From: Nonomuraea africana
GTDB taxonomy: Bacteria > Actinomycetota > Actinomycetes > Streptosporangiales > Streptosporangiaceae
DNA: 64,000 nucleotides
Assembly: GCF_014873535.1 (NCBI RefSeq)
Contig: NZ_JADBEF010000001.1
Span: forward strand, 6,820,001 to 6,884,000
Reading direction: 5' to 3'
The notes below the pieces were generated by a model that worked only from the letters and a program-made list of their open reading frames with translations, did not search any database and was not told the origin of the DNA. Of this stretch, positions 19,880 to 58,690 are shown one piece after another (within the stretch, counting starts at the first letter, position 1; the number at the start of each line of letters is the position of its first letter). Made by a program: the position numbers and the translations under genes.

Positions 19880-21643
<1,764 letters not shown>

Positions 21644-21651
21644 CGAACTGT

Positions 21652-21678
21652 TTAGCACTCTACCCTGCCGAGTGCAAG
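21652..21678 (-). promoter_or_regulatory. CIRCE element 2 (HrcA operator)
   Basis: TTAGCACTC - nine bases - GAGTGCAAG. The left half is a perfect match to the consensus and the right half is off at two positions. It is 35 bp from the first element, centre to centre. Confidence 0.83.
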
Positions 21679-21838
21679 CGAGCGACACGCCTGCCCAGGT
21701 CAGTCATGACCAGAGTACGGCCACAGGCCCGATCGCCGGGTGCGGATCGGGCCTGCAGAGTCGACGAAAAGGACGTGGCAGATCCGCACGGACTGCGTTG
21801 CCGTGTGAGCTGCCGGTGCTTACCAGCGACGTGACGGA

Positions 21839-22039
21839 TCAGACCGCCCTGACCGACTCCGCCTGCGGACCCTTCTGGCCCTGGGTGATCTCGAACTCGA
21901 CCCGCTGGCCCTGCTCGAGTGACCGGTAGCCATCCATCATGATCGCTGAGTAATGGACGAATACATCCTTACCACCGTCTACCGCGATGAAGCCGTAGCC
22001 CTTGTCCGCGTTGAACCACTTGACGGTGCCCTGCGCCAC
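21839..22039 (-). CDS. CspA-family cold-shock protein
   Basis: 66-residue single cold-shock domain. It starts [20 protein letters not shown] (RNP1) and contains DVFVHYSAI (RNP2), followed by [17 protein letters not shown]. It is a full-length RNA chaperone of the CspA class. The leader upstream (to about 22230) is long, as in other cold-shock mRNAs, and holds AGAGGAG and GAAGTGG before the ATG. It is placed between groEL and the ThiS-like gene, the arrangement I recall from Streptomyces. Confidence 0.95.
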
Positions 22040-22247
22040 TTCCGACTCCTCTTACTGGGCTCCGGACCCCGCCCATTCCACTCGCGAGATCCGCGACCGG
22101 CATGACTTATGGGGAAATCAGCCGGACGATCGCCCTCGACCATACCTGTGGCAACCCGTAGAACAACAGAGTCAATCGAGCCGGGCATTCTTCCCGTCGC
22201 GAAAAAGGTAGTTAAACATTCCACTTTCGCGAGGCCGAACACCAAAA

Positions 22248-22278
22248 ACGCCCGCGGGGGGATAACCCCCGCGGGCGT
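22248..22278 (-). terminator. rho-independent terminator of the thrC-like/ThiS operon
   Basis: Perfect 13-bp inverted repeat ACGCCCGCGGGGG / CCCCCGCGGGCGT with a 5-nt loop. On the minus strand it is followed by TTTTTGG, so it ends the two-gene operon 19 bases after the ThiS-like stop. Confidence 0.9.
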
Positions 22279-22296
22279 CGTCGAGAAGGGAAAGCG

Positions 22297-22572
22297 TCAG
22301 CCGCCGGCCACCGCGGGGATGATGGAGATCTGCGCTCCGGCCGGGGTGGCGCTGTCGAGCCCGTCCACAAAACGGACGTCCTCTTCTCCCACATAAACGT
22401 TGACAAAACGGCGAATTTTGCCCGATTCATCCAGAATTCGCGCACCGATCCCCGGATAGTCGGCGTCGAGCTTCTGCAGCACCTCGCGAAGCGTGCCGCC
22501 TTCGCCGCTCACCTCCGCGTTGCCGCCGGTGTACGTGCGCAGAATGGTGGGAATCCGCACCGAAACGCTCAT
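22297..22572 (-). CDS. metO: ThiS/MoaD-like sulfur carrier protein (MetO/CysO-like)
   Basis: 91-residue ubiquitin-fold protein (MSVSVRIPTILRTYTGG start, middle GKIRRFVNVYVGEEDVRFVDGLD) ending in IIPAVAGG. The terminal Gly-Gly is the site that is adenylated and thiocarboxylated in this family. It lies 18 bases downstream of the thrC-like gene on the same transcript, behind a SAM riboswitch. A Shine-Dalgarno (GGAAAGG) precedes the ATG. It most likely hands sulfide to the partner PLP enzyme, as CysO does for CysM. From memory, a MetM/MetO pair with this gene order has been described in Streptomyces. The activating E1-like enzyme is not in the window. Confidence 0.88.
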   Translation of the reverse strand: MSVSVRIPTILRTYTGGNAEVSGEGGTLREVLQKLDADYPGIGARILDESGKIRRFVNVYVGEEDVRFVDGLDSATPAGAQISIIPAVAGG

Positions 22573-22589
22573 GACTTGTACCTTTCCTT

Positions 22590-23822
22590 TCAGACAGCCG
22601 CGCGGAACGCGTCGAGAGACGGCCGGATCACGGCCGTGGGACTGGCGTCCTCCGCGATCGCGTCGAGCGTCTTGAGCCCGTCGCCCGTGTTGAGCACGAC
22701 GGTCGTCAACGAAGGGTCGAGCTGCGCGGTCTCGACGAGCTTCTTCAGCACGCCGACCGTCACCCCGCCCGCGGTCTCCGCGAAGATGCCCTCCGTCGAG
22801 GCCAGCAGCTTGATGGCCGACACCACCTCGGCGTCGGTGACGTCCTCCACCGCCCCGCCCGTACGGCGCGCGATGTCGAGCACGTACGGCCCGTCGGCGG
22901 GGTTTCCGATGGCCAGCGACTTGGCGATGGTGTCCGGCTTGACCGGCTGGACCACGTCGTGCCCCGCCTTGAAGGCGGTGGAGACGGGAGAGCACCCCGC
23001 CGCCTGCGCTGCGAAGATCTTGTAGGGCTTGTCCTCCACGAGCCCGAGCGAGATGAGCTCCTTGAAGCCCTTGTCAATCTTCGTGAGCTGCGAGCCCGAG
23101 GCCACCGGGATGATGATCTGGTCGGGCAGCTCCCAGCCGAGCTGCTCGGCGATCTCGTAGGCCAGCGTCTTCGACCCCTCGGCGTAGTAGGGCCGCAGGT
23201 TGACGTTGACGAACCCCCACTTGTCGCCCAGCGGGTCGCCGATGAGCTCGGAGCAGAAGCGGTTGACCTCGTCGTAGGTGCCCTCGATGCCGACCAGCTT
23301 GCCGCCGAAGACCCGCGCCATGGCGATCTTGGCCTGCTCCAGGTCGGCCGGGATGAACACGCACGCCTCGAGGCCCGCGCGAGCCGCCGCGGCGGTCACC
23401 GCGCCCGCCAGGTTGCCCGTGGAGGAGCACGACAGGGTGTGGAAGCCGAAGTTGCGCGCCGCCTCGACGGCGATGGCGACCACGCGGTCCTTGAAGGAGT
23501 GGGTGGGGTTGCCCGAGTCGTCCTTGACGTGCAGGTCGCGCAGCCCGAGAACCTTGCCCAGGTTGTCGGCCTTGACGAGCTTCGTCCAGCCGGGGTTCAT
23601 GTTCTGCTTGGACGTCACGTCCACGGGGACGGGCAGCAGCGAGCGGTACCGCCAGATGTTCGCGGGACCCGACGCGATGTCCTCGCGGGTGACGGAGCCG
23701 AAGGAGTAGGCCACTTCGAGCGGCCCGAAACACTCCAGACAGGCGAAGCTAGGGCCCAGGTCGTAGCGTGCGCCGCACTCGCGGCAGGACAGAGCGACAG
23801 CGGGGCCGAAATCAAGGGACAT
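22590..23822 (-). CDS. metM: threonine-synthase-like PLP enzyme, probable O-phosphohomoserine-dependent homocysteine synthase (MetM-like)
   Basis: 410-residue fold-type II PLP enzyme that automated annotation would call threonine synthase (thrC). An N-terminal zinc-ribbon-like segment (C13, C16, C28, C31 in LSCRECG...CLECFG) precedes the PLP-lysine motif NPTHSFKDR and the phosphate-binding loop SSTGNLAGA. The ATG at 23822 is chosen because its Shine-Dalgarno (GGGAAGG) abuts the riboswitch; the longer frame to 23867 would start inside the aptamer. The SAM riboswitch and the co-transcribed Gly-Gly sulfur carrier argue for homocysteine formation from O-phosphohomoserine. Genuine threonine synthase remains an alternative. 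The fold is secure; the reaction is inferred. Confidence 0.85.
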   Translation of the reverse strand: MSLDFGPAVALSCRECGARYDLGPSFACLECFGPLEVAYSFGSVTREDIASGPANIWRYRSLLPVPVDVTSKQNMNPGWTKLVKADNLGKVLGLRDLHVKDDSGNPTHSFKDRVVAIAVEAARNFGFHTLSCSSTGNLAGAVTAAAARAGLEACVFIPADLEQAKIAMARVFGGKLVGIEGTYDEVNRFCSELIGDPLGDKWGFVNVNLRPYYAEGSKTLAYEIAEQLGWELPDQIIIPVASGSQLTKIDKGFKELISLGLVEDKPYKIFAAQAAGCSPVSTAFKAGHDVVQPVKPDTIAKSLAIGNPADGPYVLDIARRTGGAVEDVTDAEVVSAIKLLASTEGIFAETAGGVTVGVLKKLVETAQLDPSLTTVVLNTGDGLKTLDAIAEDASPTAVIRPSLDAFRAAV

Positions 23823-23837
23823 GAAGCGAGGCCTTCC

Positions 23838-23973
23838 CTCATCTTCGTCTGCGACCACCTTGGTCACAGACCGGAATTGGCACCTGTCCCGGCCGGCCTC
23901 GTCACTTCACGAGCACAGTCCGGGAGGGTTGCCGGGGCTTCGCAGGGCCGGTCCCTCCACCCCTCTGGATGAG
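23838..23973 (-). promoter_or_regulatory. SAM riboswitch (SAM-I/S-box class), translational type
   Basis: On the minus strand the leader reads through the S-box core in order: AUCCAGAGGGGUGGAGGGAC, then GGCCC, GAAGCC, GGCAACC, a P3 hairpin (CUCGU/ACGAG), GGUGCCAAUUCC and a 10-bp P4 hairpin at 23847-23871 (GUCUG.GACCA / UGGUC.CAGAC). P1 is CUCAUC (23968-23973) with GAUGAG (23838-23843). The 3' strand of P1 touches the Shine-Dalgarno at 23832-23838, so SAM-stabilised P1 should occlude ribosome binding directly. Confidence 0.92.
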
Positions 23974-24034
23974 CAATATGAAGTTATGCGCCTCACCATA
24001 CCCGGCGATGCTCATGACACGAGCAGGCGTCTCG

Positions 24035-24595
24035 CTAGCTGAGACGATACGTATCACCCAGCGCGGCCTGAACGTACTTGCGCGCCTGGTGGATACGGGA
24101 CTTGGCGGTGCCGAGCGGGATGCCGAGCTGCTCGGCGACCTCGTTGTAGTCGAGCTGGACGATGTCGCGCAGCACCAGCGCCTGGGCCAGGTCGGGCTTG
24201 TCGGCCTCGAGCGCCTCCATGGCGTCGAGCAGGTCGAGCCGCGAGCCCGCGATGACGCTGACGCGCCGTACGTCGGGCTTCTGCACCGGCAGCTCCTCGG
24301 AGGTCTGCTCGGCGGCCCTGCGCTTCAGCGACCGGTAGGTGGTGCGCGCGCAGTTGGCGGTGACGATGTGGAGCCAGGTGCTGAACCTGGCCCTGCCCTC
24401 GAAGCGGCCGATGTTGCGGGCCACCGCGAGCAGGGTGTCCTGGCACGCCTCCTCGGCGTCCTGGTGGTAGGGGAGGATGCGCGCGCAGTGGCGCAGCACG
24501 TCGGGCTCGATGCGCTTCAGGAGCTCGCCCAGCGCGCGATGGTCGCCGCCCGCTGCGGAGCGGGCCAGTTCCTCGGTTAGCTCATCAAGGGCCAT
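24035..24595 (-). CDS. ECF-type RNA polymerase sigma factor
   Basis: 186 residues with sigma-70 regions 2 and 4 only. Region 2 contains CARILPYHQDAEEACQDTLLAVARNIGRFEGRARFSTWLHIVTANCA. Region 4 (DLAQALVLRDIVQLDYNEVAEQLGIPLGTAKSRIHQARKYV) holds the DNA-binding helix-turn-helix. No anti-sigma gene is adjacent, so control must be elsewhere or transcriptional. It is divergent from otsA with only 24 bases between them, so the two promoters overlap. Confidence 0.93.
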   Translation of the reverse strand: MALDELTEELARSAAGGDHRALGELLKRIEPDVLRHCARILPYHQDAEEACQDTLLAVARNIGRFEGRARFSTWLHIVTANCARTTYRSLKRRAAEQTSEELPVQKPDVRRVSVIAGSRLDLLDAMEALEADKPDLAQALVLRDIVQLDYNEVAEQLGIPLGTAKSRIHQARKYVQAALGDTYRLS

Positions 24596-53534: not shown

Positions 53535-53557
53535 AAATCCCATAATGTAAAGATTGC

Positions 53558-53674
53558 GCGGCGGCGACCTACTCTCCCACACCCTCCCGAGTGCAGTACC
53601 ATCGGCGCTGCAGAGCTTAACTTCCGGGTTCGGAATGTAACCGGGTGTTTCCCCTGCGCTATAACCGCCGCAAC
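53558..53674 (-). rRNA. rrf: 5S ribosomal RNA
   Basis: About 117 nt. The minus strand carries the 5S core CCGAACCCGGAAGUUAAGCU and a closing stem between GCGGCGGUU and the 3' end. It is the last gene of the rrn operon, 60 bases after the 23S gene. Ends are estimated to within a few bases. Confidence 0.93.
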
Positions 53675-53734
53675 CCCATGAGACAGTGCTTGTTGTCTCA
53701 GAATTGCGTAGTGGACGCGAGCAAGAATGCTTTG

Positions 53735-58690
<4,956 letters not shown>

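Follow-up and report, generated by a model that had tools for sequence, protein, structure and literature searches.

We analysed a 64,000 nt stretch of the Nonomuraea africana genome (contig NZ_JADBEF010000001.1, positions 6,820,001 to 6,884,000; hereafter the window). Its minus strand carries a SAM-I riboswitch aptamer followed by a gene for a threonine-synthase-like enzyme, here called metM, a gene for a small sulfur carrier, here called metO, and a terminator-like hairpin. In the direction of transcription the locus and its neighbours read as follows.

24035..24595, minus strand: ECF-type sigma factor gene (Pfam Sigma70_r2 and r4_2), upstream, outside the pathway
23836..23975, minus strand: complete SAM-I (S-box) riboswitch aptamer (RF00162 match)
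23838..23843, minus strand: GATGAG, the 3' strand of P1 in the aptamer, leading straight into the ribosome-binding region; proposed platform for translational control
22590..23822, minus strand: metM, PLP-dependent thrC-like enzyme, 410 aa (PALP and TIGR00260 matches)
22297..22572, minus strand: metO, ThiS/CysO-like sulfur carrier, 91 aa, Gly-Gly end (PF02597 match)
22247..22279, minus strand: intrinsic terminator-like hairpin with T tail (pairing and fold score)
21839..22039, minus strand: cold-shock protein gene, downstream neighbour outside the pathway (ORF, stop codon included)

The start of metM was placed at ATG 23822, 13 nt from the aptamer, because the first listed start of the reading frame (GTG 23867) falls inside the aptamer and because the ATG context was conserved across 19 aligned leaders. 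The gap between metM and metO measured 17 nt rather than the 18 bases given in a preliminary description of this DNA. That description also had the gene pair ending at a strong terminator. The hairpin has 14 pairs, 12 of them G-C, and its fold z-score was -4.66 with 0 of 200 shuffles equally good, but a simple terminator pattern was found once against a mean of 1.4 in shuffles. As the simple pattern was not above chance, the fold score is the better evidence for a terminator. A sigma-70 promoter scan found no promoter. The cold-shock gene and groEL (window positions 19880-22039) lie 3' of metO on the same strand and have no obvious role in methionine metabolism; this arrangement recurred among the best 80 of 582 named loci, for the cold-shock gene in 72 of 72 testable loci and for groEL in 71 of 71 testable relatives. 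A link between the ECF sigma factor gene and the operon was considered and dropped, as this gene was the same-strand upstream neighbour in only 27 of 78 testable loci. Elsewhere on the minus strand of the window (53556-58690) the 16S, 23S and 5S rRNA genes form one run, and no tRNA genes were found within the 64 kb.

The whole window was searched with cmscan and RF00162 was matched at 72.5 bits (gathering threshold 44.4, E 4.9e-15) over model positions 1-108 of 108. This full-length match, together with the core motifs found on the minus strand, confirmed the earlier proposal of a complete SAM-I core in the leader of the thrC-like gene. At E 0.001 the metM leader was the single match in the 9.69 Mb genome. 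Helix P1 is formed by CUCAUC and GAUGAG, and its 3' strand continues into GGAAGG and then the AUG, which starts 15 nt after the P1 strand. This spacing was compared across a class-wide set of 148 genomes (at least 90% complete, drawn evenly), 106 of which carry metM. The sequence AGATGAG ended 8-20 nt ahead of an in-frame start in 102 of the 106 class loci, the remaining 4 not showing the exact AGATGAG, and 15-20 nt ahead in 79 of 80 named loci (the best 80 of 582).

In the free fold of the leader GAUGAGG lay in a hairpin with GAAGG in its loop (unpaired 0.97-1.00), and the A and U of the AUG were open with the G paired (0.03 unpaired). Enforcing P1 moved the ensemble energy from -87.1 to -84.6, a cost of 2.5 kcal/mol. 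Under this constraint the three G of GAAGG had unpaired values of 0.00-0.06, the two A had values of 0.41 and 0.99. The start codon now had its A paired. Folding was performed without pseudoknot or ligand, and the aptamer did not appear in the unconstrained fold. The P1/ribosome-binding-site layout and these predicted folds favour translational control, in which SAM would act as the off signal. A transcription-terminator platform was dropped, as the P1 strand ends so shortly before the start codon in the 102 class loci. No covariation was found in P1 among the 19 aligned leaders; the 5' strand was invariant and the 3' strand differed in one leader (L068, A to G).

MetM matched PALP at 225.5 bits and the NCBIfam thrC model TIGR00260 at 275.1 bits, above the cut-off of 167.1, so that automatic naming as threonine synthase is expected. 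TIGR00260 does not separate MetM from ThrC. The protein matched the solved ThrC chain 2d1f at 156.7 bits and is 35% identical to the canonical ThrC of its own genome. Two motifs, NPTGSFKDR around the PLP lysine and a GN(A/L)GN loop, were taken as marks of ThrC from this canonical protein, which carries ANPTGSFKDR and GNAGN, and from four solved bacterial ThrC chains, in all of which NPTGSFKDR was also aligned. The window MetM passes TIGR00260 and lacks the canonical motifs, reading NPTHSFKDR at the lysine. Among the 106 class MetM proteins 95 carried NPTHSFKDR, 11 carried NPTNSFKDR, and neither NPTGSFKDR nor the GN(A/L)GN loop was found in any. An N-terminal CxxC...CxxC pair, zinc-ribbon-like, is present in the window MetM and was found within the first 60 residues in 106 of 106 class proteins. 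The lysine-motif change, the missing loop and the CxxC pair are candidate marks that may tell MetM from ThrC. The closest named records were from Nonomuraea, with MetM 88-91% identical among the matches listed, and Streptomyces orthologues, accompanied by the same RNA and an adjacent carrier, were 77-80% identical to the window protein.

The carrier encoded by metO ends in PAVAGG and matched PF02597 at 51.5 bits, in agreement with the ThiS-like protein ending in GG that had been described directly after the thrC-like gene. Its nearest solved chain was 3dwg_C (90.1 bits, full length), which we take to be mycobacterial CysO. MetO loci in other genomes were found by tblastn; a scan for ORFs ending in GG missed many carriers. 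The two genes adjoined each other in 80 of 80 named loci (the best 80 of 582) and in 79 of 104 class loci, two of the 106 running off their stretch, and some pairs overlapped by 4 nt. No adjacent metO was seen at the other 25 of the 104 (L134, L135, L143-L145, L147, L152, L159, L174, L189, L198-L212), and each of their genomes carries a CysO/MetO-like carrier elsewhere.

The rest of the genome was searched for threonine, methionine and cysteine genes. A second, canonical ThrC was found at C1:9295932 (463.9 bits to 2d1f). The preliminary description had suggested looking for a second thrC next to hom/thrB; a GHMP-kinase gene, read as thrB, follows the canonical thrC, but no hom gene was identified beside it. 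The best match in the genome to the MetX model TIGR01392 scored 162 bits, short of all MetX cut-offs among the families listed for it. The same protein, an alpha/beta hydrolase (L022:3892-4902) that could be misnamed MetX, fits subfamily PRK07581 at 541 bits (cut-off 332). No protein from the 148 class genomes or 14 controls reached the TIGR01392 cut-off of 500 bits, and the absence of MetX is called from the score gap (162 bits as compared to 314-448 bits in 85 positives) and from membership in PRK07581. Abhydrolase_1 (PF00561) was tried as a MetX probe and gave 115 matches in this genome with no discrimination, and TIGR01392 was used instead.

MetA had no match in the genome. Five of ten Cys_Met_Meta_PP matches were typed against the best 25 families listed for each. 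One passed PRK07811, cystathionine gamma-synthase, at 675.8 bits, the other four passed no curated cut-off, and no cut-off for MetY or MetZ was passed by any of the five. Since no source of acyl-homoserine was found, the PRK07811 protein completes no pathway. Judged from the families searched, no standard homocysteine route would be left in the genome if MetM were set aside.

Cysteine genes were also present. In L021, genes for a cysteine synthase (364 bits) and a Prok-JAB peptidase (108.4 bits) flank that of a CysO-like carrier. The peptidase matched nothing in NCBIfam at 1e-20 and is called Mec-like from its gene context. Whereas this CysO shares its locus with the cysteine synthase and the Mec-like peptidase, the window carrier adjoins metM. 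From L025:4217-7445 onwards, an Aminotran_5 gene (433 bits; class-V aminotransferase/cysteine-desulfurase-like), a MetB-like gene (386 bits, PF01053) and a gene judged by eye to be homocysteine-methyltransferase-like are possibly a separate sulfur cluster.

Across the class set MetM was detected in 106 of 148 genomes (E 1e-80), MetX in 85 (E 1e-60) and RF00162 in 111, with 115 matches under tightened Infernal filters, at the cost of some weak matches. Every one of the 106 class metM genes was preceded on its own strand by a SAM-I aptamer no more than 500 nt away, an aptamer also lay upstream of metM in 80 of 80 named loci (the best 80 of 582), and 106 of the 115 class matches sat at metM. The nine matches away from metM were in G002, G021, G027, G029, G048, G056, G071, G100 and G132; three were below gathering and that in G071 was at a contig end. 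This near-exclusive pairing makes the RNA a useful marker of the pathway. Both metM and metX were present in 47 genomes, metM only in 59, metX only in 38 and neither in 4. MetX was thus found in 38 of 42 genomes without metM and was absent from 59 of 106 with it (Fisher p 1.1e-7, uncorrected for kinship). A CysO/MetO-like carrier was detected in all 106 metM genomes as compared to 24 of the 42 others, and a Mec-like peptidase in all 106 as compared to 21 of 42. These class-wide counts over 148 genomes of riboswitch, P1 spacing, peptidase and carrier are what the present analysis adds.

The MetM/MetO pair with a SAM riboswitch is already known, and N. africana is a further example with good class-wide support. 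According to the available text of PMC12172450, which cites Hasebe et al. 2024 (AEM 90:e01247-24), Streptomyces albulus MetM is a homocysteine synthase encoded with metO and an upstream SAM riboswitch, which bears out the statement in the preliminary description that such a pair had been reported in Streptomyces. By the account in PMC12172450 the S. albulus system resembles the locus in the window in having a thrC-like homocysteine synthase acting on O-phospho-L-homoserine, a MetO carrier and the upstream riboswitch; it differs in genus, and the window MetO ends in Gly-Gly whereas many Streptomyces MetO end in Gly-Gly-Cys. Table 3 of PMC8079986, in the part of the article available, lists (SAM)-SLIV_16930-SLIV_16925 in Streptomyces lividans TK24 (2021) under a heading of RNA-seq validation (21/22 elements). 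This unit is like the locus in the window in having an RF00162 leader followed by two genes and unlike it in being filed as 'threonine biosynthesis'; by analogy SLIV_16930-SLIV_16925 would be metM and metO. The riboswitch-gated form in this genome had been singled out as worth confirming; in these sources a SAM riboswitch was already on record ahead of metM for S. albulus and ahead of a two-gene unit for S. lividans. The filing and the TIGR00260 score fit the warning that such genes are mis-annotated as thrC. The portions available of PMC3766115 and PMC12452182 make no mention of metM, and the literature search turned up no other account of MetM.

Taking these results together, we consider it highly probable that metM and metO form an operon under a SAM-I riboswitch that makes homocysteine from O-phosphohomoserine. 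The riboswitch match, the operon, the separate ThrC, the lack of a MetX or MetA match and the class-wide linkage were each computed here and support a methionine rather than a threonine operon, as had been proposed. For the substrate, sulfur donor, loading and release in N. africana, as for the sense of the switch, we infer the following scheme. When SAM is plentiful the ligand would stabilise P1 and, with the 3' strand of this helix leading into the ribosome-binding site, translation would be turned off. MetM, a thrC paralogue, would convert O-phospho-L-homoserine to a PLP-bound vinylglycine-type intermediate and would add sulfur where ThrC adds water, so that homocysteine and not threonine would be formed. 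MetO would donate this sulfur as its C-terminal thiocarboxylate, with a MoeZ-type E1-rhodanese as the probable loading enzyme. Release of the product from MetO would probably fall to a Mec-like JAB peptidase, by analogy with the mycobacterial cysteine route of CysO, CysM and Mec.

That route, in which a phosphorylated amino acid and a protein thiocarboxylate meet on a PLP enzyme (PMC3227635, as far as its text was available), was the template here for how sulfur would be delivered and the product released. The window carrier is closest to its CysO; the window enzyme differs in being of ThrC type and not CysM type, and a JAB-cysO-cysteine synthase cluster is present in the genome besides. PMC1779556, in the part available, describes operons in actinobacteria that combine ThiS/MoaD, JAB and cysteine synthase genes, and puts forward that fused carrier domains are released by JAB peptidases. 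The carrier and peptidase counts given above place both proteins in every metM genome. In Wolinella, HcyS and HcyD work with MetY to make homocysteine via a protein thiocarboxylate and a JAMM peptidase from O-acetylhomoserine; protein-thiocarboxylate homocysteine synthesis is common to this system and the one proposed for N. africana, and the O-acetylhomoserine substrate and MetY-type enzyme differ.

Several observations count against the favoured explanation. MetX is also present in 47 of the 106 metM genomes, 4 genomes have neither, 25 of 104 metM loci have no adjacent carrier and MetM passes the NCBIfam threonine-synthase cut-off. The 25 loci bear on whether MetM could be a homocysteine synthase for which MetO is not the obligate donor, with free sulfide or borrowed CysO being used and MetO being auxiliary or redundant. 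The finding of a CysO/MetO-like carrier in all 106 metM genomes would allow such borrowing, and in the study of a cyanobacterial relative sodium sulfide was tried in testing for MetM-like activity (PMC12172450, available text). However, metO adjoins metM in all 80 named and most class loci, at some with a 4 nt overlap, and a Mec-like peptidase accompanies metM in every genome, leaving a non-obligate MetO possible but doubtful.

The TIGR00260 score would also fit a second threonine synthase, or a dual threonine/homocysteine synthase, whose SAM control would be incidental. The main caution for the MetM reading is of this kind: a relative from a cyanobacterium, which shares 51.6% identity with S. 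albulus MetM and is encoded next to a metO-like gene, worked as a threonine synthase in vitro and raised no methionine in cells (PMC12172450, available text). Against this, a canonical ThrC is encoded elsewhere in the N. africana genome, both ThrC motifs are missing from all 106 class MetM proteins, and a threonine-synthase role would leave the genome without a homocysteine route on the families searched. SAM control at 106 of 106 loci and a carrier alongside at 79 of 104 fit methionine, and we regard a second or dual-function threonine synthase as improbable. Still less probable, to the point of being very hard to sustain, is a PALP enzyme that makes a different sulfur amino acid, either cysteine from O-phosphoserine or cysteate. 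It draws on the closeness of the carrier to CysO among solved chains and on the cysteate synthase and cysteine synthases among the weak family matches of MetM, but the score was 44.5 bits as cysteate synthase versus 275.1 as ThrC, the genome has its JAB peptidase-cysO-cysteine synthase cluster at another place and SAM control points to methionine. If MetM is the homocysteine synthase of the operon, there is a genome-wide reason to rename the protein that NCBIfam calls threonine synthase, here and in 106 of 148 class genomes, and metabolic models that leave such actinomycetes without a homocysteine route could be fixed.

The C-terminal tails of the carriers varied. MetO ended in Gly-Gly, as in the window where no extra cysteine follows, at 47 of 80 named and 63 of 79 class loci, and in Gly-Gly-Cys at 29 of 80 (L029-L108 set) and 14 of 79 (L109-L213 set), plus one Cys-Ala; pooling both sets and counting Cys-Ala, a cysteine followed Gly-Gly in 44 of 159. 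A quick tree of 184 MetM proteins called for at least 18 state changes between the two ends, counted by a fast method with 5 rows of other tails left out and Cys-Ala counted as Cys. CysO copies were compared in 60 genomes among the matches listed (L214-L273; 52 with metM, 8 without). A tail followed Gly-Gly in 41 of the 60, and only 2 of these were a lone cysteine; the CysO of N. africana (L021:5723-5998) has a Ser-Arg tail. The varied CysO tails suggest a pro-form that would be trimmed by a peptidase. An encoded cysteine after the Gly-Gly of MetO, with CysO tails mostly of other kinds, may be a new observation.

From the lone cysteine tails, the 18 or more changes, the CysO tails and the Mec-like peptidase in every metM genome, we tentatively suggest that the carriers are often pro-proteins, with a single Cys after Gly-Gly as the pro-form of MetO. 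One enzyme might then serve both MetO/CysO maturation and product release, linking methionine and cysteine supply, and lineages without metO might feed MetM from CysO. A fresh Gly-Gly-Cys MetO would be of the same chemical kind as the carrier-cysteine adduct cleaved by Mec. How the carriers mature is a simple, testable question that the tails raise. Of the 43 lone cysteine codons 42 were TGC and one was TGT, and 37 of the tails read GGC TGC TGA, which could come from GGC TGA by one three-base duplication. The lone cysteines are therefore not proof of selection, and this mutation path may explain them.
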